64,000 bases of DNA, taken from contig NZ_JAAHGH010000002.1 in the NCBI RefSeq assembly GCF_010672525.1, forward strand, positions 562,754 through 626,753, written 5' to 3'. The notes under the pieces were generated by a model, which worked only from the letters and a program-made list of their open reading frames with translations, was not told the origin of the DNA and did not search any database. A program made the position numbers and the translations under genes. Shown one piece after another: positions 11,174 to 51,409 of this stretch; within the stretch, counting starts at the first letter, position 1, and each line of letters starts with the position of its first letter. This DNA is from Okeania sp. SIO2B3 (lineage in GTDB: Bacteria; Cyanobacteriota; Cyanobacteriia; Cyanobacteriales; Microcoleaceae).

Positions 11174-12997
11174 ATGAATATATTAAGAAACTTACAAGAG
11201 GGCAAATATACATTAGAACAAGAATTAGGAAGGGGAGGTTTTGGTATTACTATCAAGGCTACTCATAATTATTTAGGACAACCCGTAGTTATTAAGACTC
11301 TCAATGAGTCTCTATGTCAACATCCCAACTTTGAGGAATTTCAAAGGAAGTTTCAGGATGAGGCAAGAAGACTCGCTTTGTGTGTCCACCCTAATATTGT
11401 CAGAGTCAGTGATTTTTTTGTGGAAGATGGTCAACCTTACATGGTGATGGACTATATTCCAGGTCACACTTTAGCAGAAGTTATATCTGGTGGACAACCT
11501 CTACCAGAGGCGATCGCCGTACATTATATTCGTCAGGTAGGGAATGCTTTGATGGTGGTGCATCAAAATAACTTGCTCCACCGAGATGTTAAACCCCAAA
11601 ATATTATGCTACGTCAGGGTACTGAGGATGTCATCTTAATTGACTTTGGTATTGCGCGGGAATTTATTGCTGGTAAAACTCAGGTTCACACTAATATGGT
11701 TTCTGATGGTTATGCTCCTCCAGAACAGTATTTTATTCAAGGAAAACGTACCGCAGCAACAGATGTATATGGTTTAGCTGCGACTCTCTATACTTTATTA
11801 ACAGCACGACTGCCAATACCAGCAATGAGGAGATCCCAACAAGAAATACCTACTCCGAGGGAGTTACACCCTCAACTAAGTGGTACTGTTAATCAAGCAG
11901 TGCTAAAAGGTATGGCAATGGATATTCAATACCGACCTGCAACTGTGGAGGAATGGCTAAAACAGTTATCAAATTCTAGCACAACTGATTTACATTCAAC
12001 TATTCAGGTTGTGCCTCAACAGCATCCAGCTCATAATGTGGGAAATGGAAAAACTTCTACTACAAATATTCCTCCTACACAAAGACCTACAGGAATTTTG
12101 ATGTGGGGTATACTCGGAGCGATCGCTACCCTAACAGTAGGAACATTAGCAGCAATAGTGTTAAATTCTCAGCCCCCTGACACACCACCTATTGTTCAAA
12201 CTCCTGCACCCTCTCCCACGGTTAGGCCATCAGATATTGCTCAAACTCCTATACCAAAACCAACTACAACTCCTACACCATCTCCAGAACCTAATGATCC
12301 GGACCAATTGCCCAATTTTACTCCTACCCCATCACCATCACCATCTCCAACCCCCACTCCTGTTCCTCCTATTGTTAGACCAACCCCTACTCCTTCACCT
12401 CCAGTAGAACAGCCTACACCCATACCACCTACAGTTGAGCCAACTCCAACTCCAACTCCAACTCTAACTCCAACTCCAACTCCGGTTCAACCTCCCCAAG
12501 GTTCAGTTCCTGACATACCTATAGATTTAATACTGCCAGATAATATTCCTTCCGATCCTATTGATAATTCTACTATTAGGGATCGGTTGCCGATTATTCG
12601 TGGTTTACCTCCAGGCACCTTAGAAAGTAAAGTAATAGAATTATTGGGAAAACCTACAAAAGTTAAAGAGCGTGGCTATTGGCCTAATACTAGGGCTGTA
12701 ATTTATGATTTACTTCCTAATCAGATTACTTTAGGCTATATATATGATCGAGATTCCCGTCGTTTACGACAAACTGAGTTGTCTGTGGCAGATGGTGTAG
12801 ATGGCCTAATGGTAAGAACCGCTTTCATTAGTATGTTGAATTGGAAAATTACTCCAGAAATTAAGCAAGGACTGCAGGACGTGCGAAACCGTAAAATTAA
12901 TCGCTACGAGTTTAAAACAGGTAATCTTGAAGGTCTAATTGAGCGTAGTAGGAATGACCTTGTCTATATTGGTGTGTGGGAAGATGATTTACATTAA
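11174..12997 (+). CDS. Membrane-anchored Ser/Thr protein kinase with PTP-rich linker
   Basis: A 607-residue Hanks-type kinase. The N-terminal kinase domain (about 14-270) has the glycine loop GRGGFG (19-24), Lys41, Glu63, catalytic HRDVKPQN (136-143) and DFGIA (157-161), then APPEQ, so it should be active. One membrane helix lies near 310-333 ([21 protein letters not shown]), followed by a ~120-residue Pro/Thr spacer. The outer C-terminal ~130 residues contain [20 protein letters not shown] and resemble small sensor-like domains appended to cyanobacterial STPKs; ligand unknown. The spacer is coded by CCAACTCC-type hexamers and may vary in length between strains. It is a monocistronic gene, with a spacer of repeats and tmRNA downstream. 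Confidence 0.93.
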
Positions 12998-15464: not shown

Positions 15465-17489
15465 ATGCCTGTAGTAAACCCTCCCGCCATCATCAACTTT
15501 CCTCTAGCTGCCGTAGTTGGACAAGAAGCAATCAAACTAGCCCTATTGTTAACTGCCGTCGATCCGGAATTAGGAGGAGTTGCCATTGCTGGCCGTCGTG
15601 GTACTGCCAAATCAGTAATGGCCAGAGCGCTACATTCACTCCTACCTCCCATTGAAATTGTTCAAGATTCCATTAGTAACTGCAATCCTAACTATCCCGA
15701 AGAATGGGACGACCAACTATTAGAGCAGTATACCGACCCCACCTCAGTAGAAGTTCCCACTCAAGTTATACCCGCACCTTTTATTCAAGTTCCTCTAGGA
15801 GTAACAGAGGACCGGTTATTAGGTTCGGTAGATGTAGAAAAATCAGTCACACAGGGAGAAACGGTTTTTCAACCAGGATTATTAGCATCAGCTCACCGAG
15901 GAGTATTATATGTAGACGAAATTAATCTGCTGGACGACAACATTGCCAATTTATTACTAACAGTCTTAACAGAAGGGCGAAATCAAATAGAACGAGAAGG
16001 GATTAGTTTTCAACATCCTTGTCAACCTCTATTTATTGCTACCTATAATCCAGAAGAAGGGCCACTGCGAGAACATTTGCTGGATAGAATAGCGATCGCT
16101 CTCTCAGCAGATATGGTTTTAGGTTTAGACCAACGGGTGGAGGCAGTAGAGCAAGCTTTAGCTTATGCTAAATCTCCCCAAGCTTTTCTCGAACGATATG
16201 CAGAAGATATAGATAATCTCAAAACTCAGATTCTTTTAGCCAGGGAGTGGGTAAAAGATGTCACCATTACCAACGAACAAATCCAATATTTAGTAGAAGA
16301 AGCAATTCGTGGAGGCGTGCAAGGACATAGGGCAGAACTTTTTGCCGTGCGAGTGGCTAAAGCATCAGCAGCACTGGATGGACGGACAACAATTAATGCT
16401 GATGACTTGCGTCGGGCCGTGGAGTTAGTTATTGTGCCACGGGCAACAATAGTGCCAACCCCTCCAGAAGAGGAGCAACAACCGCCACCTCCACCACCGC
16501 CACCACCAGAAGACCAGTCTCAAGATGAGCAAGAGGAGGATGAGGATGAGGATGAGGAAAACCCGGAACCTCCAGAGGAAGAGGAGGCAAGTATTCCTGA
16601 AGAATTTTTGTTTGACCCGGAGGGAGTGGTGTTGGATGATAGTGTGTTGATGTTTGCTCAAACAGCAAACCGTCAAGGTAAGTCTGGTAGTCGGAGTGTT
16701 ATTTTTTCTGAAGACCGGGGGCGTTATGTGAAGCCAATGTTGCCCAAGGGTCAGGTCCGACGTATTGCGGTTGATGCGACTTTGCGAGCTGCTGCTCCTT
16801 ATCAGAAGTCTCGCCGCGAACGTCAGCCAAATCGTAAAGTGATTGTGGAACCTATTGATATGCGAGCAAAGCGTTTGGCCAGAAAGGCTGGTGCTTTGGT
16901 GGTGTTTGTGGTTGATGCTTCGGGTTCGATGGCGTTAAATAGGATGCAGTCGGCGAAGGGAGCGGTGATGCAGTTGTTGACGGAGGCTTATCAGAGTCGC
17001 GACCAAGTGTCGTTGATTCCTTTTCGGGGTGAACAAGCGGAGGTGTTGTTACCGCCTACTCGTTCAATAACTACAGCGCGACGACGTTTGGAAAAGATGC
17101 CTTGTGGTGGGGGTTCGCCTTTGGCCCATGGTTTGACTCAGGCGGTGAGAGTGGGTGTGAATGCCAAGCAGTCTGGTGATGTTGGGCAAGTGGTAATTGT
17201 GGCTATTACGGATGGACGGGGTAATATTCCGTTGGCGCGTTCGTTGGGTGAGCCGATATTGGATGATGAGAAGCCGAATATTAAGGAGGAGTTGTTGGAA
17301 ATTGCTAGTAAAGTTCGGGGTTTGGGAATTCAGTTATTGATGATTGATACTGAGAATAAGTTTGTTTCGACTGGGTTTGCAAAGGAGTTGGCGAAGCAAG
17401 CGGGGGGTAAGTATTATCATTTACCTAAGGCGACAGATCAAGCGATCGCTGCTATGACTCAGAATGCTCTCAAGGATGCTATTGGTTGA
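15465..17489 (+). CDS. chlD: Magnesium chelatase subunit D
   Basis: ChlD forms the AAA+ double ring with ChlI that drives Mg2+ insertion on ChlH. The 674 residues show the N-terminal AAA+ module with Walker A GRRGTAKS (43-50) and Walker [11 protein letters not shown] (147-156), a Pro run and Asp/Glu-rich linker (about 333-375), and a C-terminal VWA domain with MIDAS DASGS (484-488). Length and order match cyanobacterial ChlD. The GTGATGGG repeats begin immediately after its stop. The next gene downstream on the same strand codes for a GUN4-containing fusion, and GUN4 is the known activator of this enzyme. Confidence 0.97.
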
Positions 17490-17774
17490 TGGGGTGATGT
17501 GGTGATGGGGTGATGTGGTGATGGGGTGATGGGGTGATGGGGTGATGGGGTGATGGGGATAAACAACGCAAGTGCAAGGGAGCAAGGTGCTCCCACTGTT
17601 CCCTTGACCAAAATAATTACAATAGACCACAATTATAATGCACCACCACCAAAAATATTACAGCAGATTCGGTCGTATATGAAGTACAAAAATTATAACA
17701 CCTGCCAGGTTGGTGTTTGACAATTAGTGCGAGCATCTTGCTCGCTTCATAATATCAATTTTATAAATTTTTGC

Positions 17775-18515: not shown

Positions 18516-18652
18516 GGAGATATCTACTTATCTCTAACCTGAAACATTTACCACCTATAATACTAAAGATATATTGTTGATTAGACCACTTCTATAACCT
18601 ACCTATATCCATAAATAGGAGAGAACTTATGTATAATAATTATTATAATATC

Positions 18653-18745
18653 AGGACTTACGCATCAGGTACGAAAAATTAGGATTTAAGATTGCTTCCG
18701 GTGTCGGTCGCTTGGGAGGAAAATACGTTGTACTGCGTAAGTCCT
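18653..18745. mobile_element. MITE-like element, TIR AGGACTTACGCA
   Basis: Perfect 12-bp ends AGGACTTACGCA and TGCGTAAGTCCT bound 93 bases, located 34 bases before the start of the Macro-SLOG-GUN4 gene. It could influence that gene's transcription. Confidence 0.8.
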
Positions 18746-18779
18746 AAATATATTATATATACCAATTTTAAATAAATTA

Positions 18780-21716
18780 ATGAATATTTTAGGTAAAAAT
18801 TGCCATATTCCTACAGAAAATCTACAATGGAGTGAACGTATCACCATTACTCAAGGTGATATTATTTCTCAGCAAGTAGAGGCAATTGTTAATCCAACTA
18901 ACAATAATCTCCGCAGTTACGGACTATGTACCAAAATTCATCAAGTAGCAGGAGAAGTACTCAGAAGCGCAACCAGACAGATAGAATGGCTCGATATCAG
19001 TGAAGCTAAAATCACTAAAGGCTATCAACTCCAGGCTTCGTACATCATTCATACCTGTGCCCCCGTTTGGGATCAAACTAACAGCCAAACCTCTAGTCAA
19101 CAGTTAGCTCAATGTTATCATAACTGTCTGGAGGTAGCAGCAAAAAATCAAATTAATACTCTCGCTTTTCCCTGTGTAAGCACGGGAATGCGAGGGTTTC
19201 CCAGAGATTGGGCTGCAAAAATAGCCATGACAGAAGTGGTGAAATTTTTACAACACAACTCCCTCCCCTGGAAAATAATTTTTGTCTGTGGCGAGTCAGA
19301 TGATTACGAACAATATCAAGCACATCTACCAACTGATATAACTTCTCCCACTTCTTCCGAACAACCTCAAGTTCAAATTGCGAAAAGTTTAGTTGCTCGA
19401 ATTGAATCTAAGTTTAGAGTCGCTATTATTGGCAGTACTTCCTTTTGGGGTGTGACTACCGAGGCAATATGCAAAGCTACTGGTAGACAACTGGCAACAT
19501 TAGAAAATTTAGCTCTGTTGACTGGTGGAATTATGGGTGTACCCGAAGCAGTATCCCTGAGTTTCTGGCGAGAGCATCAACAGCAAAATAAATTTGCCCC
19601 AGTTTACCATATTCAGCCTACTGGATTTGAACCGTGGGAATATGGTATAAATTTGTATGGAGGCAAAACTCTATCTGAGCGCCGAGAAATTCTGGCTCGG
19701 ATGGCATCAATATATATCCTGATTGAAGGTGGCCCCGGAGCTAAACAGGAGGCTGAAACTGCAATGGCAGCAGGTGCAGTGGTGATTCCGGTGGGAGTAA
19801 CGGGAGGTTTTGCTAAGGAACTTTATCAAAAAATGTCTCGCCCTTACTATATACCTTCTCAGTTGTGGCAAAAATTGGGGGAAGGCTATATTTCATCGGA
19901 AACAGTGGCAGAAGCGATCGCTCAAATTATGGAAAAAATCTGGCAACGTCCCAAAGAAGTGATGTTTAACCCTGAAAAAAAATCTGTTACCGATTTAGAA
20001 TTGCGATCGGCATTAGGGGTTAATTACCGGAAGTTGCGAGATTTATTAGCAGCATCTCAATGGCAAAAAGCGGACTGGGAAACTTTCCGCCTGTTTTGTG
20101 AAATTGCCCTGAGAGTAGAAGTACACAAAGGTGTTAAAGAAATTCGGGAAATTTTGAAGACAATTAACAAGAATACTCAACCAAAGAGATTTCGCGAACT
20201 CACTGACTTGCTGCAACATTACCAGACAATGTTTCACAGTATTCATCAACAGAAGTTTCCCTCTTGTTCGCTTTATGGTTATCTTCCTGGTTGCCTTAAT
20301 TGGAAGTTTATTAATAAATTGCCTTTACTAGATTTACAAACAATTGATTTACTCTGGATGGTATATTCTGGCGGGCGTTTTGGTTTCAGCGTGCAGGAAA
20401 GAATTTGGCAAACATTATTTACTCAGGATGAGGCGAAGGTGGAGGATAATTTTATCAGTTGTGTAGGGCGAGGTTATTCTCAAGGTGGAGATGCTTATCA
20501 GGAGGGTGAAAATTTTACCCTGAATTCTCCCGAGGGGTTGTTACCTTGGCTCAACTGGTATGATGCTGAGGGTAATCTTCACGGTATAGAATGTGATGGG
20601 AAGTTACGTTATTTGACGGGTGGGTTTGCTCAGAAGGGTGTGATGAGAAAGCTATGGCAAGAGGGAATTAGGAAAAGGTTGGAAGTGGGAGATAATGATT
20701 TTTCTAATTGCGTGCTGAGTGGTTTAAATTTGCAGGGTTTGAATTTTCAAGGTGCTAATTTCAGGGGTGCTTATCTACAGAATGCTAATTGTGAGGGGGC
20801 AGTATTTACTGATGCCGATCTTAGAGGTGCTAATTTAGTAGGAGCCAAATTTTCAGTGGGAGCTTTGCAAGAGGCAGTTATCGACCGGAGTGATGCGTGC
20901 AGTTGTCAATGGTTGAAATCTTATACTATTTTAATTGTTGATGATTCTATTATTGTTCGTCAACTTTTGAGTACGACTTTTACTAATGCTGGTTATGAGG
21001 TAGAAATTGCTAGAAATGGAGTAGAAGCTTGGGAAAAATTACAAAATAATTTACACGTTGATGTGATTTTATTAGATATAGAAATGCCGAGAATGGATGG
21101 TTATGAACTAACTAAAAAAATCAGAAATGATGCTAAGTTTAAAAATATATTAATCGCTATTTTAACTAATCGTGCTATGGCTAGAAATAAACAGAAAAAA
21201 ATTCAGGAAGAATTTAATTATTGTTGTTATTTGAACAAACCTTTGGCTGAGGAAAAAGTGTTAGAAACTATCAATAATATTTTGAACAAATGTGTGAAGC
21301 ATGAGACTATTTTAATTGTGGATGATTCTATTACTATTCGTGAACTTTTGAGTATGACTTTTATCAAAGCTGGCTATCAGGTAGAAGTAGCAAAAGATGG
21401 GTTAGAAGCTTGGAATAAATTGCAAAATAATTTACAGGTTGATTTGATTTCATTAAATATAGAAATGCCGAGGATGAATGGTAGAGAGTTAGCTTTAAAA
21501 ATTAGAAAAGATTCTAAGTTACAAAATTTACCAATAATTTTTATGACTTCTCGTGGTAAATCTAGAATGGGTGTAGCAATTGAACAATCAGTTAATAATT
21601 GTGCTTATTTGACAAAACCTTATGTTGAAGAGAAGGTATTAGATACTGTCAAAAGTTTATTGAAAAAAGAAGGAGTCAGTCCTCAGGAGTCAGGAGTCAG
21701 GAGAAAGGAAGGATGA
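18780..21716 (+). CDS. Macro - SLOG - GUN4 - pentapeptide - REC - REC fusion protein
   Basis: A 978-residue soluble multidomain protein. Residues about 20-183: Macro domain (QGDIISQQVEAIVNPTNN; PCVSTGMRGFPRDWAA), which binds ADP-ribose-type ligands in known members. About 205-385: SLOG/LOG Rossmann domain (VAIIGSTS; LTGGIMGVPEA; EGGPGAKQEAETAMAAGAVV), a nucleotide-ligand fold. About 405-590: GUN4-like (YRKLRDLLAASQW; LDLQTIDLLWMVYSGGRFGF), with about 70 extra residues between its first helices and core; GUN4 binds porphyrins and activates Mg-chelatase. About 638-705: pentapeptide repeats. REC1 715-835 has DD721-722, Asp766, Lys820. REC2 842-962 has Asn893 in place of the phospho-acceptor Asp, with DD848-849 and Lys946 kept. 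Overall function is unknown; a light, redox or stress input to tetrapyrrole synthesis is inferred. The last ~12 codons come from AGGAGTCAGGAGTC repeats. Confidence 0.85.
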   Translation: MNILGKNCHIPTENLQWSERITITQGDIISQQVEAIVNPTNNNLRSYGLCTKIHQVAGEVLRSATRQIEWLDISEAKITKGYQLQASYIIHTCAPVWDQTNSQTSSQQLAQCYHNCLEVAAKNQINTLAFPCVSTGMRGFPRDWAAKIAMTEVVKFLQHNSLPWKIIFVCGESDDYEQYQAHLPTDITSPTSSEQPQVQIAKSLVARIESKFRVAIIGSTSFWGVTTEAICKATGRQLATLENLALLTGGIMGVPEAVSLSFWREHQQQNKFAPVYHIQPTGFEPWEYGINLYGGKTLSERREILARMASIYILIEGGPGAKQEAETAMAAGAVVIPVGVTGGFAKELYQKMSRPYYIPSQLWQKLGEGYISSETVAEAIAQIMEKIWQRPKEVMFNPEKKSVTDLELRSALGVNYRKLRDLLAASQWQKADWETFRLFCEIALRVEVHKGVKEIREILKTINKNTQPKRFRELTDLLQHYQTMFHSIHQQKFPSCSLYGYLPGCLNWKFINKLPLLDLQTIDLLWMVYSGGRFGFSVQERIWQTLFTQDEAKVEDNFISCVGRGYSQGGDAYQEGENFTLNSPEGLLPWLNWYDAEGNLHGIECDGKLRYLTGGFAQKGVMRKLWQEGIRKRLEVGDNDFSNCVLSGLNLQGLNFQGANFRGAYLQNANCEGAVFTDADLRGANLVGAKFSVGALQEAVIDRSDACSCQWLKSYTILIVDDSIIVRQLLSTTFTNAGYEVEIARNGVEAWEKLQNNLHVDVILLDIEMPRMDGYELTKKIRNDAKFKNILIAILTNRAMARNKQKKIQEEFNYCCYLNKPLAEEKVLETINNILNKCVKHETILIVDDSITIRELLSMTFIKAGYQVEVAKDGLEAWNKLQNNLQVDLISLNIEMPRMNGRELALKIRKDSKLQNLPIIFMTSRGKSRMGVAIEQSVNNCAYLTKPYVEEKVLDTVKSLLKKEGVSPQESGVRRKEG

Positions 21717-22689: not shown

Positions 22690-24195
22690 ATGAAACTTTT
22701 ATTAAATTATTTCACAATTATAATTAGCTTATTTTCCCTGCAAAACTTAGCTTTAGCAGAAACAAATACTCTAGAAAATCAACCTCAAAAACCTCGGTCA
22801 GTAAAAATATTTCCTACTAATTTTCAGCCAGAAACACCAGAGCAAAAATTAGCTGAAGCAGACAGACTTTATTTAGCAGGAGAAAAAACAGCAGCCGAAA
22901 AACTTTACCGAGAAGTAAAAGAACCATTTTCTGAAGATATTGAAGCTAAAATTAATCGTCCTAAAGCAATTTATGAACCTACAGAATTACCAATAACAGC
23001 TCAAGTTTATTGGCGACAAGCACAAGAAGGATTAGCTAAAAATCTAGAGACTCAAATCTTGATAGCTTTAGAATTATTAGTCAAAGAATATCCTGAATTT
23101 ATTCCAGCTCATATTAAATTTGCAGAAGTATTAAAAGCTGATGAACAAACAGAATTAGCCTTAGAAAGATTACATCAAGCAGCGAGTTTATATCCCAACG
23201 AACCAGAATTAATGAAAGCTCAAATTACTGCTCTAGCAAATGAAAAAAAATGGTTAGAAGCAACTTTATCTGCCCAACAATTTGCTTTAATGAATCCCGA
23301 ACATTCCCAAGTAGATGAATTTAATCAATTAGCAGAAACCTATAGAAAAAAATTTCAGTCTCAACTCAAATCAAAATTAAGAGGAAATACAATTGCTAAT
23401 GTTGTGACTGGTGCTTTAGGAGTAGCTCTTACTGGCAATCCATTTGCTGCTATGAATGCAGTTCAAACAACAGCATTAATGCTCCGAGGAGAATCAAGAA
23501 TTGGCAAAAATTTAGCAAAATCTGCCACTAAAAGTTTACCTATGGTTGAAGATGAAACAATTCTTGAATATGTTAATACTATGGGGCAAAAACTTGCAAA
23601 AATGACTGGTAGAGACGAGTTTGAATATCAGTTTTATATAATTAATGATGAAAATCTTAATGCTTTTGCTTTACCTGGTGGGCAAATATTTATTAATTTA
23701 GGAGCAATAGTTAAAACTAATTCGGAAGCAGAATTAGCAGGTTTACTTGCTCACGAACTAGCTCATACTGTATTATCTCATGGATTTCAGTTAATGTCTG
23801 AAGGTAATTTAATTAGTAGCGTTACTCAATATATTCCTTATGCGGGTGGTGTAGTTAGTAATTTAATTGTACTTAACTATAGTCGAGAAATGGAACGTCA
23901 AGCAGATGTATTAGGAACACGAATTTTAGTATCAGCAGATTATGCAGCAGATGGGGTAAGAAATTTGATGAAGACTCTGAATAAAGACACAGAAGATAGA
24001 GGTATTATTGCTTGGTTATCCACTCATCCAGAGACAGCAGAAAGGGTACGTTATTTAGAAGAGTTAATTGTTAATAGTGGTTATAATCGTTATGCTTATG
24101 AAGGAGTAGTTTATCATGGGAAAATTAAGGAAAAAGCTAAAGCATTATTAGTAGAAAAGAAAAAAGATTTTTCAGCAATAGGGAATAGGGAATAG
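22690..24195 (+). CDS. Exported M48-family metalloprotease with TPR-like N-terminus
   Basis: A 501-residue BepA/YfgC-like protease. A signal peptide is clear (residues 1-23, ending LALAE). Residues about 50-225 are helical repeats of TPR type (EQKLAEADRLYLAGEKTAAEKLYR; AEVLKADEQTELALERLHQAASLYPNEPEL). A Gly/Ala-rich, moderately hydrophobic stretch is at 232-262. The M48 catalytic site HELAH is at 355-359, with the third zinc ligand in EMERQAD (Glu402). Unlike BepA, which has C-terminal TPRs, these repeats precede the protease domain. It probably acts in the periplasm in outer-membrane protein quality control. No strong ribosome-binding site; ATG chosen for the signal peptide. Its C-terminus is coded at the edge of repeat sequence (AGGGAATAGGGAATAG). 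Confidence 0.9.
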   Translation: MKLLLNYFTIIISLFSLQNLALAETNTLENQPQKPRSVKIFPTNFQPETPEQKLAEADRLYLAGEKTAAEKLYREVKEPFSEDIEAKINRPKAIYEPTELPITAQVYWRQAQEGLAKNLETQILIALELLVKEYPEFIPAHIKFAEVLKADEQTELALERLHQAASLYPNEPELMKAQITALANEKKWLEATLSAQQFALMNPEHSQVDEFNQLAETYRKKFQSQLKSKLRGNTIANVVTGALGVALTGNPFAAMNAVQTTALMLRGESRIGKNLAKSATKSLPMVEDETILEYVNTMGQKLAKMTGRDEFEYQFYIINDENLNAFALPGGQIFINLGAIVKTNSEAELAGLLAHELAHTVLSHGFQLMSEGNLISSVTQYIPYAGGVVSNLIVLNYSREMERQADVLGTRILVSADYAADGVRNLMKTLNKDTEDRGIIAWLSTHPETAERVRYLEELIVNSGYNRYAYEGVVYHGKIKEKAKALLVEKKKDFSAIGNRE

Positions 24196-44566: not shown

Positions 44567-47500
44567 TTAGTGCACCTGAAAAATTGGAACATCATAAGCG
44601 ACTAATTTAGCGATCGCTTCCTCATTTTCGCACTCCAAAGCAATTTTACCCTTAACCAAAGTCAAAAGAGCCTCCCACTGAATTTGACTCAACTCGCCAA
44701 CCAGAGAAATATCTGGTCCTTCCTCCACATCTAACTCCTCTTCCATCATCAGATTCATCACAATGCTAGATAAAGCCATATCTGCATCTTCCTGAGAAAT
44801 GTTGGTAGTATCCACTAAAAGCTTCATCCTACCTTTATCTGGACGAGAGGCGATCGCTGTTAACACCCTGGCAAAATCCTTGTAAAGCTCTTCCTCCTCG
44901 CAACTCCAATCTGGGAAGATAATTAAATTAATATCCCTCAACCGCAAACTTTTCCGGATGGCATCTACCATATAACCTTGAAACAGTTCTTTAAACACTG
45001 TTCCTATTTTTGCCGAATAAACTTGACTATCCAAAAATGCAGGATTAGCTTGCATCTTCTGCTTAATTTCGCTTTTCTTTTGTTGACGTAACTCCGCATT
45101 AGTTCCTAAGGCAACTGCTAAATCTATGTAAAACTCTTCACTATCGGCAACTAGATCGGAAACATCAAGCGATCGCAATATTGCACCACCCATCGCACCT
45201 CGGAAACAACTGCCTTGTCTGGAAATTATTGGCATTCCCACTTCTAAAGGTTCTATCAAAGAGCTAGTACCGGAAAAAGGATAAGAGTCCAAATAGACAT
45301 CAGCTATTTTCAAATATTGCTTAACATCATGCCGATTTAATAACGGTTCAGGGTCTAGAACGATTAAACGATTAGCGACGATTCCATGTTGGGAAAACCG
45401 ATTATTTACCTGCTCCAAAAACGCTTTCTTGGGATAAGCATTCGACCAATTTGGCCCAAAGGGCATCAACAGCAACACAGAGTTAGGTACGGCAGCAATA
45501 ATTTTTGCCCATGTTTCCATCACTTCTGGGATAATTTTAAAGAAATTCGCACCAGAAATAAAAATCACGCTATCTTCGGAAATTCCCAAACTTTCGCGAT
45601 TGACTTTAACCCTTGCCTCTTCTGTTTCTACTCCGTAACTAAAACAATGAGCAGTTCCCTCTAATTTTACCAATTGCTCTTGATAGTGCTGTTGTGCCTT
45701 TTCCATGGGGTCTGTAAGTTCGCCGGAAATGTAATAATCGATATTGTGCATTCCTGTAGTTACCACCGAAGCGACGCTAGTAACTTGTACCCTTGCCAGT
45801 CGATGTAATGCTAACAGACAAATTTGATTGGTAACAGCTGTGACATTTGTGCCGATAAACAGGATATCTAGATCGTCAGCGCGAATAGTATTTACTTGCT
45901 CTTTTAAATTTTGAGGCAGTTTAGTAAAAAAGTTAGCACAACCACGGCAATATTGCTCTAGGGAACGGTCTGTCTGTTTTAGAGAGTACAATACGACTTC
46001 ATATTCCCTGCTGATATACTCGTAAACTGGAAGGGATGCAAAAGTTTCTGCTGTTGGCTCAAAGTGTGTGGCTAAAATACCGAGACGAATCTTTTTGCGA
46101 TTTCCTCTTTCTGGGAATTCATAATCTATTTGATGAACTTGCCGTTTCAGTGTCGATTCTATAATTTCGGCACGCTTGACATAAATATCTTTGAGGTTGC
46201 CAGAGTTAAAGTAAAGGGGAATAAAATTAGCATTTTGGCTAAACTCATTAGCTACCTTTTGCCAAATAGTTGAGTTAGGGTTGCTAAATATGAAGGAGTG
46301 CAAGCTATCTACTAACTCCTGGAGATAGGAATAGTATTGATCTGCTTGCCCTCTTTCTGAATACAGAATAGGAGACTCTAGCAGAAATTTGAGGTAGTCG
46401 TCAAACAGCCATTGGGGGATTTTAGTCAAGTCATATTCTAATGGCAATTGCTCTGGACGACGGTAAAGCATTGCTGTCAAGAAATATTGGATAACTTTCG
46501 GTTTGTCAAAAACTTCTTTGAGGTTAATTAAGATTTCTGCAACAAAGCTTTGTTCGCTATTAGTAAGGGGTTCGTTTTTGATACCGCTTTTCAGTAGATG
46601 TTGATGAGTTTGACCTAAAGTTCCCAAATAGGCAGTTACCAATTCATCTGTCGGTAAACTCAGCCACAGCTCGGCGATTTGTTTTCTCGCTAGACGCAAA
46701 TTAGCAAGTGCGAAGCGATCGCTAGGCTCTTTCTGATAGTTGCTAATTAAACGAGGTAATCCCGAAAGCAAATCTTGAATGTCGGGCGCTAAACTCAGTT
46801 CTGTCATAATTGTTTTGTTATCGTCGCTTAATAAGTTTAAAGAAATATTGCGTTCTCGTAAGATTTGCTCTGCTTGCTTGACTTCTTCTTCGGCGTACAG
46901 TTGAGAATGAAGTTTAATTATCTTGGCAATATGCACTGAAAAAGCATTTTTGTCGTTATAAAGAGTTTGGTTTCTCGCTCCAGAAGCGTGCTGTCGGTAG
47001 TAAAGATATGGTTTCGCCAAACGATAGCCCTGCCATCCTTGTTCGTAAGCAGATATCCAAAATTCCCAGTCTTCCAATCCTTGCTCCATGACTTTCTTAA
47101 AGCCGCCTACGCGATGGTAAACTTCTTTTCTGACCAGAGAAGTGACTGCTGCCTGATTATTTCTTAAAAAGACTTCTGGAATAAACTCTTGTCTTTCGAC
47201 AATTTCGTTACTGACTCCAAAATACTGAGCGTCAGTATAAACAAAACCAACATCAGGTTTTTCCTGCAATAGCTTCATTGTTTCTGCGAGAAAATTAGGG
47301 TGAATTGTATCGTCTGCATCTAAAAATAAAATGTATTTACCTGATGACTTGATCGCTCCTGCATTTCTGGAATCACCTACCCCACTATTAGCTTTTTCTA
47401 ATAACCGAATATTGCGATCGGGATATAACTCAATCAAAGACCTCGCTACTTCGCTAGTATTGTCGGAGCTGCCGTCATTAACTATGATGCACTCCCAGTT

Positions 47501-50500
47501 TTCATAACTCTGATTAATTACACTTTCTACTGCTTCTGGGAGGTATTGAGCGTAGTTGTAACAAGGAATAATTACACTTACCATTTCAATCACTTTTGTG
47601 GTGCGATAAGGCAGGGTCTCTAACTCAGACGTAGATACTGAAACTGGTATCGTGTTTGGATGTGGCAAATTGCGCTGAAGAATCCCGTATTCCTCCCATA
47701 CCTGCAATGTCTCCCTAGCAGATGTTGGCGAATTTTGTTCTAAACCTTGTTGGTTATCGTAGTACAATCCCAGAATTTCGGGCAGACGCACAATATTTTC
47801 GTTCTTGCCTATTCGGAGCCATAATTCGTAATCTCCCGCGACAGTAAACTCTGAACGGAAATAACCGTACTTTTCGTGAAGTGACTTTCTCCACATTGGT
47901 TGGGAACCGATAATGCACCGTCGTTCGAGTTCTTCGTAGGAAAATTCCGGCCAATTCCAACGTTTATCTGCTTGCGTTGTCACCCAAGTATCGTTAGCAA
48001 GATCGGTAATTAAATGGTCGGCATACACTAAAGACGTTTGGGAATGATCATCTAAATAGGCTGCCATTTTTTCTAGAGCATCGGGACGGTGGCGATCGTC
48101 TGTATTGGCATTGGTAATGTATTTACCTTTGGCAAGTTTAATCCCCCGATTCCAAGCTGCATAAATAGTTTCTCTTTCGGGAGTTCGATAATAAGCGATC
48201 TGGGAATATTGAGTTTGGAATTCTGAGGCGATCGCCCCTTCTTTTTCCGTGGAGGCACTGTCAATAATAACAATTTCCAACTCACCTTTTTTGTACAGAG
48301 TTTGATTAACTAAATCTTCCAGACAACCAGGCATAAATTTCTCCGAGTTGTAAGTAGAAACAATCGCCGATACTTTAGGCAAAATTGTTGATTTTGCTTC
48401 CCTTGTAACTGTTGCCCAAATCCAAGGTTTATAGCATTCCAGAGAAATTAAATTGAAACCAGCTTCGACGAGCAACTGTTTTAATTGATCGTCAGTATAG
48501 GCATTGCCTAAGAAATAGTATTGTCGCTCTGCCATGCCTTCTTCATCAAAATTGCCCCAATTTTCTGTGCTGCGATCGTGTACTTGAATTCTAAAATATC
48601 CCCCTGGTTTTAAGACACGAAATATTTCGCGAAAATAGCTTTTGACAATAGACACAGAACGGATGTGCTGAAAAACAATTATCGAAAAAACAAAATTGTA
48701 ACTTTCGTCAGCTAACTGTTGTAAATCGCAGCCATTATTAACGTATAATTCTCCATTTTGTTTGCCATCAGCTAAATATTGCTTGGCAAACTCAACCATA
48801 TTTTCCGATATATCTACCCCATCAACCCAGGCGAACGCTTCTCGTAAATGCTTAATTAGACGACCAACACCGCAACCAATTTCTAATACTTTCCACTCCG
48901 GTTTTGCCGGAATACCTTTAAGAATTTGTCTGCTTGAAGACAGTATTGATTTTTGCCAAGCTTGCCTTTTTTCCTCTGGGGATAATTTTTCTATACCTTC
49001 ATAAACAAACACCCTGTTGAACATAGCTTCATCTAGGGAGCCAACATTCCAAAACTGACGCTGGTGGTTGAGTTGTGCTTCGTTAATTCCTAGTTTTTGG
49101 GAAGGCGAACGCTCAAGTATTATCGGTGTTTTAACTAGGGAAGTTGACAAAGATGCCGTTGGCTGTTGGTTAAAAAATAATTCCCGGTAATTTACTTTAG
49201 GGAAAACTGGACAGTGACCTTCTACCGTAGCATCAATAATTTGACGATTATTAGCTCGAAAGTATTCTTCAGCAATTCTGTAAAACCTTTCTGAATTTGC
49301 CAAATCTGGTAGATTCCATTTAATTCCCTTTCCAAAATAATCTGGATGGAAGTGATTGGGGTCTTCTCCCTGAGAAACAACTTCTTTATTTGCATCGCCT
49401 TTGGTGACAAAATTATGATCTACACCAATCAAAATTACAGTTTCAAACCCCATGTAGTAAGCTAACTGCATAGCCACATAAGTGACTGTGTAACCTTCAT
49501 GGACTCCCGTTTGAGGATTTGTAGCAAAAGCAGTTTGAGGGTGAGTTGTATTTATAAATATCATATCTGACTGCGGTTGCAAATAAGGAATTCCCTTATT
49601 ACTAATAAACTTAGGGCAGGGAATTTTGCTTATTTCTTCAGCACTTTGCTCTATTACTAAGGGATTAACTGACACATAATAAGTCGGAGTAAAGCCCCAC
49701 TTTTCAAACCCTAGATAAATGCGATTCATTCCAAAGCAAATCTCATGCTTGAGGAATGATAAATCCATCTTATTTAAACTCGGTCCGTTGCCTATAATAA
49801 CGCATCTTTGACCCTTGTGTCTATTTTGAAAAGCAAGTAGTTTTTGATTGGACTCTTGTAGTATGGCTAGCTCTCTGTTTGTTGTCAGATATGATGATTG
49901 ATTTTTCAAAGCACTAATATAACTAGATAAAGCTCGCTCAAACTCTGTAAGTTTATCCTGACGGACAAAAATTAAGTTTCCCCAAGCTGGATGATGATTT
50001 AAGGGGTAGGTACTAAATTCTAAAAATTGATGGGTGGTAGTTGCTTTACCTTTCCTGCCATACTCTTTTATTGGATCCCATTCTGAAACAAATACATGAT
50101 AACCCCGCTCTTCCATGTAACGAGCCATATCGTGATGCGAATAGCCGAAATTAGGTTGCGAGCGATCGTCCATAAATTCGCAGATCACGATTTCTGGTTG
50201 CATTTTGCTAAAGTCAAAGCTCTGCAATGCCAAAAAATCTGCACCTTCAACATCTATTTTCAATAGCGAGACCCGATCTACTCCCAGTGCTTTTAAAGTA
50301 GTATCTAATCGGACTGTCTCTACTTTCAGCTTAGGTTGATGGGTGTCATGAAACGGTTTTAGGGAATGAATGCCCCAATGTTCCGAACTTACATAAAATG
50401 GTATTTCTTGACCTGCTTTATCGGATACTGCTTTAGGTATGATGGTTACGTTTGGATAATTCTGCAAATAGCTTTCTAACTGCCGTCTATTTTCCGGTTC

Positions 50501-51409
50501 TGGTTCAAAAGCGATAACTTGCCAGCCTTTTTTCGCAAATGGTTCAGCAGAAGACCCAACGTGAGCGCCTACATCTATTAATGTAGGCTTTGGTTCTGCG
50601 TGAAAGGGAAATTTAAGTAGTAAATCTAATTCTGAAAAATTCATTTGTCTTCGTTTTTTATATACACACAAAATAACGCCTTCAGTATGACCTTTATGTA
50701 AAGCTTTTGCTTCTATCATTGAGATTCTTCGCCAGGTGAAAAGTCCTCCCCGATCTAGCTTAAATCTTTCACTGCCTACACAAGGTTGATATTCGTAATA
50801 CTCTTGCTTAACTAAATCTAGTAGTTCTTCAAATTTTCTAATTGAATTGATGGTGTAGTTACGAGCTTGTTCACCTAGTATTAGTTCATCCTTAACTCCA
50901 AATGGCAGTGTCATTATTAATTCTCCACCAGGCTTTAATAGCCTGGTCAATTCCTGAACAGCTTTATAATCACCATTATTTTCAACATCAGGAAGTTTAT
51001 CTGAGCGAACTTGTGGCGAATACAAGCCTATATGCTCTATTACTGATACAGCTATGATTTTGTCAAAAGTATTATTGGGAATCGGAATATTTCTGACATC
51101 CGCTTGATGAAAAGTAATTTTTTTAAACTGTTTTAAAGGTGGATCGTAGTCAGTGGCGTGTACATCTATTGACAGGCTTTCCAACCATGAAATCCAAGCT
51201 GGATCGGATTTGACTGTTCCCACATCAAGGATACATTGGGCATTACCTAGTTGAGAAGCTGCAAATGGATACTCAATACAACGACTGTGAAGAAAATCCC
51301 AAGGTCTGTGAAATAGAGGATTAGGTTTAACTTCACCTATCTCATTTAATTCAAAAATTGGAACAGTGACACTACCAAAATCATTTTCACTTTTTTTTAT
51401 TAGATTCAT
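44567..51409 (-). CDS. Giant glycan-assembly protein: methyltransferases, DUF115, two GT2, GT41, shared tail
   Basis: 2280 residues in one frame. 57-170: class I methyltransferase (ILDVGTVKSDP; VSVIEHIGLY; LLKPGGELIMTLPFG). 275-470: FkbM methyltransferase (LIDVGAHVGSSAEPFAKKG; LLKIDVEGADFLAL). 530-735: DUF115/MptE-like (GQRCVIIGNGPSLNKMDLSF; VILIGVDHNF), found in Maf-type flagellin glycosylation proteins. 835-945: another methyltransferase (VLEIGCGVGRLIKHL). 1010-1215 and 1275-1480: two GT-A family 2 domains, with TNANTDDRHRPD and LFLDADDTIHPN as metal sites. 1500-1765: helical linker. 1772-2150: GT41 (IRLGILATHFEP; LDSYPFSGTSSLIEPLEVGM). 2155-2280: the tail shared with the 996-residue protein. 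Activities and order of reaction are inferred. Nothing suggests an assembly artefact in frame, but a read-through check is worthwhile. Confidence 0.9.
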   Translation of the reverse strand: MNLIKKSENDFGSVTVPIFELNEIGEVKPNPLFHRPWDFLHSRCIEYPFAASQLGNAQCILDVGTVKSDPAWISWLESLSIDVHATDYDPPLKQFKKITFHQADVRNIPIPNNTFDKIIAVSVIEHIGLYSPQVRSDKLPDVENNGDYKAVQELTRLLKPGGELIMTLPFGVKDELILGEQARNYTINSIRKFEELLDLVKQEYYEYQPCVGSERFKLDRGGLFTWRRISMIEAKALHKGHTEGVILCVYKKRRQMNFSELDLLLKFPFHAEPKPTLIDVGAHVGSSAEPFAKKGWQVIAFEPEPENRRQLESYLQNYPNVTIIPKAVSDKAGQEIPFYVSSEHWGIHSLKPFHDTHQPKLKVETVRLDTTLKALGVDRVSLLKIDVEGADFLALQSFDFSKMQPEIVICEFMDDRSQPNFGYSHHDMARYMEERGYHVFVSEWDPIKEYGRKGKATTTHQFLEFSTYPLNHHPAWGNLIFVRQDKLTEFERALSSYISALKNQSSYLTTNRELAILQESNQKLLAFQNRHKGQRCVIIGNGPSLNKMDLSFLKHEICFGMNRIYLGFEKWGFTPTYYVSVNPLVIEQSAEEISKIPCPKFISNKGIPYLQPQSDMIFINTTHPQTAFATNPQTGVHEGYTVTYVAMQLAYYMGFETVILIGVDHNFVTKGDANKEVVSQGEDPNHFHPDYFGKGIKWNLPDLANSERFYRIAEEYFRANNRQIIDATVEGHCPVFPKVNYRELFFNQQPTASLSTSLVKTPIILERSPSQKLGINEAQLNHQRQFWNVGSLDEAMFNRVFVYEGIEKLSPEEKRQAWQKSILSSSRQILKGIPAKPEWKVLEIGCGVGRLIKHLREAFAWVDGVDISENMVEFAKQYLADGKQNGELYVNNGCDLQQLADESYNFVFSIIVFQHIRSVSIVKSYFREIFRVLKPGGYFRIQVHDRSTENWGNFDEEGMAERQYYFLGNAYTDDQLKQLLVEAGFNLISLECYKPWIWATVTREAKSTILPKVSAIVSTYNSEKFMPGCLEDLVNQTLYKKGELEIVIIDSASTEKEGAIASEFQTQYSQIAYYRTPERETIYAAWNRGIKLAKGKYITNANTDDRHRPDALEKMAAYLDDHSQTSLVYADHLITDLANDTWVTTQADKRWNWPEFSYEELERRCIIGSQPMWRKSLHEKYGYFRSEFTVAGDYELWLRIGKNENIVRLPEILGLYYDNQQGLEQNSPTSARETLQVWEEYGILQRNLPHPNTIPVSVSTSELETLPYRTTKVIEMVSVIIPCYNYAQYLPEAVESVINQSYENWECIIVNDGSSDNTSEVARSLIELYPDRNIRLLEKANSGVGDSRNAGAIKSSGKYILFLDADDTIHPNFLAETMKLLQEKPDVGFVYTDAQYFGVSNEIVERQEFIPEVFLRNNQAAVTSLVRKEVYHRVGGFKKVMEQGLEDWEFWISAYEQGWQGYRLAKPYLYYRQHASGARNQTLYNDKNAFSVHIAKIIKLHSQLYAEEEVKQAEQILRERNISLNLLSDDNKTIMTELSLAPDIQDLLSGLPRLISNYQKEPSDRFALANLRLARKQIAELWLSLPTDELVTAYLGTLGQTHQHLLKSGIKNEPLTNSEQSFVAEILINLKEVFDKPKVIQYFLTAMLYRRPEQLPLEYDLTKIPQWLFDDYLKFLLESPILYSERGQADQYYSYLQELVDSLHSFIFSNPNSTIWQKVANEFSQNANFIPLYFNSGNLKDIYVKRAEIIESTLKRQVHQIDYEFPERGNRKKIRLGILATHFEPTAETFASLPVYEYISREYEVVLYSLKQTDRSLEQYCRGCANFFTKLPQNLKEQVNTIRADDLDILFIGTNVTAVTNQICLLALHRLARVQVTSVASVVTTGMHNIDYYISGELTDPMEKAQQHYQEQLVKLEGTAHCFSYGVETEEARVKVNRESLGISEDSVIFISGANFFKIIPEVMETWAKIIAAVPNSVLLLMPFGPNWSNAYPKKAFLEQVNNRFSQHGIVANRLIVLDPEPLLNRHDVKQYLKIADVYLDSYPFSGTSSLIEPLEVGMPIISRQGSCFRGAMGGAILRSLDVSDLVADSEEFYIDLAVALGTNAELRQQKKSEIKQKMQANPAFLDSQVYSAKIGTVFKELFQGYMVDAIRKSLRLRDINLIIFPDWSCEEEELYKDFARVLTAIASRPDKGRMKLLVDTTNISQEDADMALSSIVMNLMMEEELDVEEGPDISLVGELSQIQWEALLTLVKGKIALECENEEAIAKLVAYDVPIFQVH

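Follow-up and report, generated by a model that had tools for sequence, protein, structure and literature searches.

The window analyzed here is a 64,000-nucleotide stretch of the genome of Okeania sp. SIO2B3, a cyanobacterium of the family Microcoleaceae (assembly GCF_010672525.1, contig NZ_JAAHGH010000002.1, positions 562,754 to 626,753). It contains a gene whose 978-residue product joins Macro, SLOG, GUN4, and pentapeptide-repeat domains to two receiver (REC) domains in a single chain (Table 1). The reading frame runs from an ATG at position 18780 to a stop codon ending at 21716 with no internal stops, and the five-domain protein is a real, conserved, and rare architecture. An earlier reading of the sequence, hereafter the original prediction, had proposed this domain order in one uninterrupted frame, with a possible link from nicotinamide adenine dinucleotide (NAD) or ADP-ribose signals to chlorophyll synthesis. 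The order is borne out, with two refinements of the anatomy: an insert of about 58 residues splits the GUN4 domain, and the second receiver is a tandem duplicate that is missing in one of two lineages.

Table 1. Positions in the window of the fusion gene, its parts, and the two genes that flank it
Feature	Position	Strand	Remarks and evidence
Whole gene, Macro-SLOG-GUN4-pentapeptide-REC-REC	18780..21716	+	978 aa; open reading frame, Pfam, orthologues
Macro domain	18831..19337	+	about residues 18-186; Pfam, residue reading
SLOG domain, LDcluster4/STALD type	19413..19949	+	about residues 212-390; RR...EGGPGAKQE
GUN4-like domain, paralogue type	19968..20579	+	about residues 397-600; Pfam, tree, model, fold search
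Lineage-specific insert within GUN4	20115..20288	+	residues 446-503; alignment, model
Place of GUN4 bilin motif	20532..20567	+	residues 585-596, EGLLPWLNWYDA versus orthologue GHLPLSNxLR
Pentapeptide repeats	20691..20879	+	about residues 638-700; Pfam
Receiver domain 1 (REC1)	20925..21287	+	phosphoacceptor Asp766 kept; Pfam, residues
Receiver domain 2 (REC2)	21306..21674	+	tandem duplicate of REC1; Asn893 replaces phosphoacceptor
M48 peptidase gene	22690..24195	+	downstream; landmark of the common site in most genomes read; considered outside the system
chlD	15465..17489	+	upstream, 1,290 bp away with repeats between; no conserved linkage; considered outside the system

Domain architecture and distribution

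All named domains exceed their curated Pfam cut-offs in a scan of the whole protein. Response_reg reaches 148.6 bits over two stretches (cut-off 30.2), Macro 101.9 bits at residues 37-149 (cut-off 22), GUN4 86.9 bits over two stretches with the best at 506-593 (cut-off 29.2), and Pentapeptide 55.8 bits with the best at 655-692 (cut-off 20.2). Two SLOG models match, LDcluster4 with 36.2 bits at residues 212-348 (cut-off 26.3) and STALD with 30.2 bits at 302-386 (cut-off 24). Scanning separate segments raises the scores of Macro, SLOG, GUN4, and pentapeptide above their whole-protein values.

A search for the same domain order in other cyanobacteria, as the original prediction had suggested, found it in Okeania. 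A scan of genome contigs returned four relatives, all in Okeania metagenome-assembled genomes (SIO2C9, SIO1I7, SIO2F4, and SIO3I5, together taken to be records G607, G608, G613, and G281), and each encodes the domains in the same order in a single frame, which rules out a fusion produced by sequencing error. In a fifth genome (locus L094), two pieces of the gene meet at an ambiguous assembly base, their ends overlapping. The SLOG-GUN4 part was matched in 3 of 291 genomes of the order at E 1e-20, the source genome included. The SLOG profile found matches in 5 of 386 genomes of the phylum at E 1e-6, namely the source genome, G282, G495, and two with TIR-SLOG proteins, and in 7 of 61 genomes of the family, six with fusions and one (G586) with a standalone SLOG gene. 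The G495 match covers 42 positions in a frame with stops.

The protein in G282, Aphanizomenonaceae cyanobacterium TIOX110 (L033), has the order SLOG-GUN4-pentapeptide-REC. It shares the order of the Okeania protein after Macro, with a SLOG domain that is 47-51% identical, but it lacks the Macro domain and the GUN4 insert and has a longer pentapeptide region and a single receiver extended by additional C-terminal sequence. Because this protein has no Macro domain, Macro is confined to the Okeania-type proteins among the relatives found. A phage or plasmid origin was rejected: two peptide patterns run against viral contigs brought up nothing related to the SLOG domain, and plasmid (20 best of 113) and phage (9 of 9) records match the Macro part alone, none covering 80% of the query. 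In the literature searched, which took in few subscription papers, no description of this domain order was found for GUN4 with SLOG, macro, Okeania, or receiver/pentapeptide, in agreement with the original prediction.

The GUN4 domain and its chlorophyll-gene neighbors

Judged by tree and motif, the GUN4 domain of the window protein is a paralogue. Its membership of the GUN4 family, with residues 405-590 as the region in question, is upheld by Pfam (91.4 bits for the segment scanned separately) and by a structural model of the segment, whose 14 best PDB fold matches are all GUN4 with probability 1.00. The model has a mean predicted local distance difference test score (pLDDT) of 78.6 and a predicted template modeling score of 0.79; it was built on a 44-row alignment that included orthologues and is therefore not independent of the sequence evidence. 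In the model, a long helix (428-461) enters the insert, and together with a second helix (468-489) it makes up most of it.

The source genome holds 18 GUN4-domain loci, derived from 20 matches, with two genes having two matches each. Besides one orthologue-grade gene and the window gene, there are 15 further genes and a single locus interrupted by stops. The orthologue-grade gene scores 209.4 bits and is the only one of its kind; it lies on contig C157 and not on that of the window, whose own protein scores 63.5 and 29.5 bits in the same scan. Among 25 genomes of the family, which hold 1 to 26 GUN4 matches each, 24 have one match of at least 208 bits, the next best being 165; G586, which is 55% complete, has none at that level. 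The LxNxLR motif, which has been tied to bilin binding and whose Asn is reported missing from the paralogue clade of that study (Rockwell and Lagarias, PMC10156173), is kept in all 24 orthologues (21 parsed, three read separately) and in none of the 15 other paralogue genes of the source genome. At its place the window protein reads WLNWYD and the TIOX110 protein WFYWRD. In the GUN4 tree, 12 sampled orthologues form a clade (100/100) that excludes the window protein, and the Okeania fusions form a separate clade (100/99). Deeper forks are weak, and only the orthologue clade was used, since long branches lead to several paralogues and to the TIOX110 row. Lying outside this clade, below 208 bits, and without LxNxLR, the domain has the GUN4 fold but does not qualify as an orthologue, the group of the Mg-chelatase cofactor.

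Among the 15 intact paralogue genes, the 10 scanned with Pfam carry kinase (three), trypsin (three), caspase (two), or KAP NTPase (two) domains; the other five were read as translations. Several of these proteins (L010-L024) share a short Cys-containing C-terminus, for example ETCRL, VDACRL, or VECNI. A KAP NTPase-GUN4 fusion (L034:9652-12567) has a hydrophobic stretch before the second half of GUN4 that looks membrane-spanning. GUN4 has been described as a cyanobacterial module found beside kinases, caspases, trypsin, and TIR domains, with a suggested role in tetrapyrrole sensing (PMC7159879), and a caspase-GUN4 fusion also appears in PMC5756287. The window protein resembles such fusions in joining a GUN4 paralogue module to signaling domains. 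It differs from them in its helical insert and in its partners, as the accessible text of these sources and of PMC8195603 describes no GUN4 joined to Macro or SLOG.

The original prediction proposed that the protein may couple nucleotide-derived and phosphorelay signals to Mg-chelatase; GUN4 would then activate or restrain the enzyme in response to ADP-ribose-type and phosphorelay inputs. The GUN4 fold is in keeping with this, as is the finding that a variant without the motif Asn, N219G of CrGUN4, can still bind porphyrin (PMC10156173); porphyrin residues in the Arabidopsis protein are F191 and R211 (PMC8967248). Linkage offers a further argument, because chlD, which exceeds the BchD-ChlD equivalog cut-off, is indeed the nearest same-strand gene upstream in the window; it also precedes the gene by no more than 2 kb in L035 and in L036, where a 190-aa open reading frame intervenes. 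However, the domain is by tree and motif a paralogue, in a genome whose single orthologue-grade gene lies elsewhere, and Synechocystis that has lost the paralogue sll1380 is stated to show no gun4 phenotype (PMC10156173). The linkage also breaks down across genomes. The window, L035, and L036 form lineage 1, with two receivers and chlD upstream, whereas the lineage 2 genes (L037 and L038) have one receiver, no REC2, and, in place of chlD, upstream genes that look TPR-like and UDP-GlcNAc epimerase-like. Further, G606 keeps chlD next to a mere fragment of the gene. A regulatory role in chlorophyll synthesis through linkage to chlD was rejected, since synteny, tree, and motif all speak against it, as does the fragment in G606. 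Regulation of Mg-chelatase by the protein appears very improbable.

An M48 peptidase gene, identified by Pfam in the window and elsewhere by a similar translation start, lies downstream in all fusion loci read except L038. In G606, which belongs to the same genus and has no SLOG match, chlD and the M48 gene flank a remnant of the 3' part of the gene that matches residues 820-978 (84% over 119 residues and 72% over 39, in different frames). G153 has the epimerase-like gene and the M48 gene with nothing matching the fusion gene between them; G609, where the contig starts just before the M48 gene, was left out of the losses. At least one loss of the gene next to chlD thus seems to have occurred, and this fragment, together with patchy occurrence, marks the gene as accessory.

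The original prediction also pointed to chlH in the window. A chlH-like gene is present (116-2473 in the window, extending upstream; L046:297-4427, 1376 aa), but it is a divergent second copy: it scores 983 bits against a PRK12493 cut-off of 1300, exceeds the TIGR02025 cut-off, and shares 40% identity with the canonical ChlH, encoded on contig C90, over the segment that scores best. Elsewhere in the window, an 8-bp tandem repeat immediately follows the chlD stop codon (17490-17569), and an imperfect inverted repeat resembling a small mobile element, its arms bearing AGGACTTACGCA, lies just upstream of the fusion gene (18641-18757). A further gene (44567-51409) encodes a 2280-residue protein with methyltransferase and glycosyltransferase domains.

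The Macro and SLOG domains

The closest PDB match of the Macro domain is MACROD2 (E 1.8e-27), and the domain retains Asp27, Asn41, and the STG loop. The Gly-rich loop is lost. In MacroD proteins, these residues have known roles and the Gly-rich GGGGVDG loop carries the catalytic Asp; the fusions read NPT[N/D]NNLR-[S/G]YGLC[T/S]KIH, with [S/G]YGLC[T/S] at the place of the loop. The position of the Asp is occupied by Cys50 in the window protein and by Cys in all six fusions (five aligned, plus L094). Seventeen Macro relatives were fetched at E 1e-30, 16 from other genomes among 292 searched and one from the source genome, and 16 of them retain the Asp within a VDG or IDA motif (15 parsed, L056 read separately). 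With a Macro profile match and neither the Gly-rich loop nor the Asp, the domain is ruled out by its residues as a canonical MacroD ADP-ribosyl hydrolase. Its function is probably to read ADP-ribose or a related derivative. The L056 relative (L056:1507-3360) is a vWA-Macro protein whose vWA domain was assigned by reading only. The source genome also encodes a 2377-residue protein (L049:6546-13679) that combines a Macro domain with five FGE-sulfatase stretches; its gene has iSTAND and AAA genes as neighbors, and the arrangement resembles published conflict systems.

The SLOG domain appears to resemble that of Thoeris ThsA while keeping the Arg/Glu pair of LOG enzymes. Arg301 and Glu324 are spaced 23 residues apart, as are Arg99 and Glu122 of CgLOG, the proposed catalytic residues of that enzyme (PMC4979012). 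All 8 close relatives read retain the pair and the EGGPGA loop: six fusions, TIOX110, and one standalone SLOG. Only 21 bp separate that standalone gene (L093:1235-2434, in G586, an incomplete genome of the family) from a divergent NUDIX gene. These features would suit an enzyme instead of a receptor, in which SLOG acts as a LOG-like phosphoribohydrolase or as an N-glycosidase that cleaves cyclic ADP-ribose, regulated by the other domains. Yet the LOG motif PGGxGTxxE reads EGGPGAKQE, with P replaced by E and the T of GTxxE by A, and sensory SLOG domains can keep similar residues: in the alignment of the SLOG profile to PDB sequences, Glu324 is aligned with Glu403 of BcThsA, which together with two other residues is reported to coordinate 3' cyclic ADP-ribose (PMC10022894). 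On balance, an enzyme in place of a receptor seems quite unlikely.

The comparison with ThsA comes from a five-sequence SLOG profile, which returned seven PDB matches at E up to 1, four named ThsA (best 9e-4) and another being 1rcu. The PADLOC ThsA and STALD models also match the domain, ThsA at no more than 24.0 bits. The next cyanobacterial SLOG matches with an intact frame, in G077 and G576, are TIR-SLOG proteins. Together with the ThsA matches, they bear out the NAD/ADP-ribose flavor that the original prediction had given to Macro and SLOG.

In Thoeris, ThsA occurs in a SIR2-SLOG type with a STALD-like SLOG and in a transmembrane (TM)-macro type whose Macro domain senses ADP-ribose-type signals, both types reading signals made by TIR proteins (PMC11204291). 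The Okeania protein holds both domains in one chain; in contrast to ThsA, no SIR2 and no neighboring TIR gene was found, and sequence similarity is low. SLOG is also fused to Macro in DNA viruses, where the pair is predicted to act on ADP-ribose signals (PMC9503650); the Okeania gene is cellular and adds GUN4, pentapeptide, and receiver domains.

An antiphage role, with Macro and SLOG sensing nucleotides made by a TIR protein in trans during infection, as in Thoeris, would fit the ThsA-like SLOG, the TIR-SLOG relatives, the accessory distribution, and three matches to TIR_2 (PF13676, the sole TIR model searched) on contigs C24 and C30 of the genome. A table of the genes that carry mutations in a phage-resistant substrain of a cyanobacterium includes a GUN4-kinase gene (PMC10811720), which is a lead only. 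Against this, no TIR_2 match lies on the window contig (C112), and no SIR2 appears in the Pfam list of the window protein up to E 1; on these two grounds, membership of Thoeris proper was rejected. The top PADLOC match, a PD-T4-6 model on the GUN4 part (75.3 bits, residues 498-596), was given no weight, because kinases generally match such models, and PD-T4-6 models also match a kinase gene at 11174-12997 (best 196.4 bits). We rate an antiphage function as unlikely.

A candidate accessory sensor

The C-terminal receivers are duplicates with 78% DNA identity over 279 nt. The phosphoacceptor Asp is present in the first or sole receiver of all five proteins compared, and all three that possess REC2 have Asn in its place. 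The phosphorelay input of the original prediction is thus possible through Asp766, but not in the usual way through REC2.

Constraint was estimated as the ratio of nonsynonymous to synonymous substitution rates (dN/dS; Nei-Gojobori method, own script) over five pairs, or three for REC2; single ratios are rough because close pairs have few substitutions. The lowest values occur in Macro (0.09-0.17), SLOG (0.15-0.31), and GUN4 residues 504-600 (0.11-0.30), followed by the pentapeptide region (0.18-0.48), REC1 (0.25-0.42), and REC2 (0.30-0.64). Values are higher elsewhere: 0.29-0.83 in the insert, 0.13-0.98 in residues 601-637, and 0.43-2.14 in the linker, where two of the five pairs exceed 1. 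The linker values, the rarity of the gene, the G606 fragment, and the degenerate REC2 might suggest a drifting multi-domain relic without function. The low ratios in Macro, SLOG, and the GUN4 core, and an intact gene in five genomes, make such a relic highly improbable.

The protein looks like an accessory sensor for stress or defense and not like one that regulates chlorophyll synthesis. Its residues and domains indicate that it is not a GUN4 orthologue, a MacroD hydrolase, or a SIR2-type ThsA. With moderate confidence, we regard it as an accessory multi-input signaling protein of Okeania-type cyanobacteria that most likely integrates an NAD-derived stress or defense signal with a second input. 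This sensor reading draws on the ThsA-like SLOG, the Arg/Glu pair kept in its close relatives, the adjacent NUDIX gene of the standalone relative, the TIR-SLOG relatives, the Cys in all six Macro domains, the low Macro dN/dS, the use of GUN4 as a fusion module, and patchy occurrence. It also draws on surveys of conflict systems, which list GUN4, macro domains, pentapeptides, and kinase-independent receivers (PMC8195603) and also place SLOG in such systems (among PMC7159879 and PMC8195603).

In the proposed mechanism, the non-catalytic Macro domain would read ADP-ribose or a derivative, and SLOG would bind a related adenine nucleotide or cleave the base from it. The GUN4-paralogue module, which has probably lost bilin binding, may serve in sensing or docking, and the pentapeptide stack may act as a scaffold. 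REC1 would be a phosphorylatable receiver, and REC2 a lineage-specific copy that cannot be phosphorylated in the usual way. Integration of the NAD-derived signal with the second input would then lead to a conformational or interaction change that is passed on.

Several observations weigh against this sensor reading. The full-length AlphaFold model has a mean pLDDT of 54.5, too poor for domain contacts. Loss of the Macro Asp is not unique to the fusion, because a vWA-Macro protein (L064:226-1992, both domains assigned by Pfam) has Ser at that position. The ThsA link is weak and spans the C-terminal part of SLOG, and the TIR-SLOG relatives are 23% identical to the domain, with no Arg aligned at the place of Arg301. 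The Okeania proteins retain the Asn of the GUN4 motif, one of its four residues, so that some tetrapyrrole binding is conceivable. Finally, among the 13 of 36 window reading frames of at least 100 aa that were scanned with Pfam, no adjacent TIR, sirtuin, membrane effector, or conserved partner gene was seen; viewed against the MoxR and vWA neighbors of VMAP and vWA-MoxR ternary systems, the genes flanking the fusion are chlD and the M48 peptidase gene.

A bolder form of the sensor reading takes the protein as a single-chain coincidence detector, in which the non-catalytic Macro and the ThsA/LOG-like SLOG would simultaneously read two NAD-derived signals, gated by tetrapyrrole status through the GUN4 paralogue and by phosphorylation of REC1. 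We consider this distinctly improbable. If true, it would let a marine cyanobacterium balance its photosynthetic state against NAD stress or infection, by a kind of detector that has not been described. More broadly, GUN4 paralogues are abundant in filamentous cyanobacteria and their function is little described, and the fusion offers an assayable handle on them. One protein would allow ligand, porphyrin, and phosphorylation assays, and would thereby probe whether conflict systems learn of tetrapyrrole status through GUN4 modules, as has been suggested (PMC7159879).

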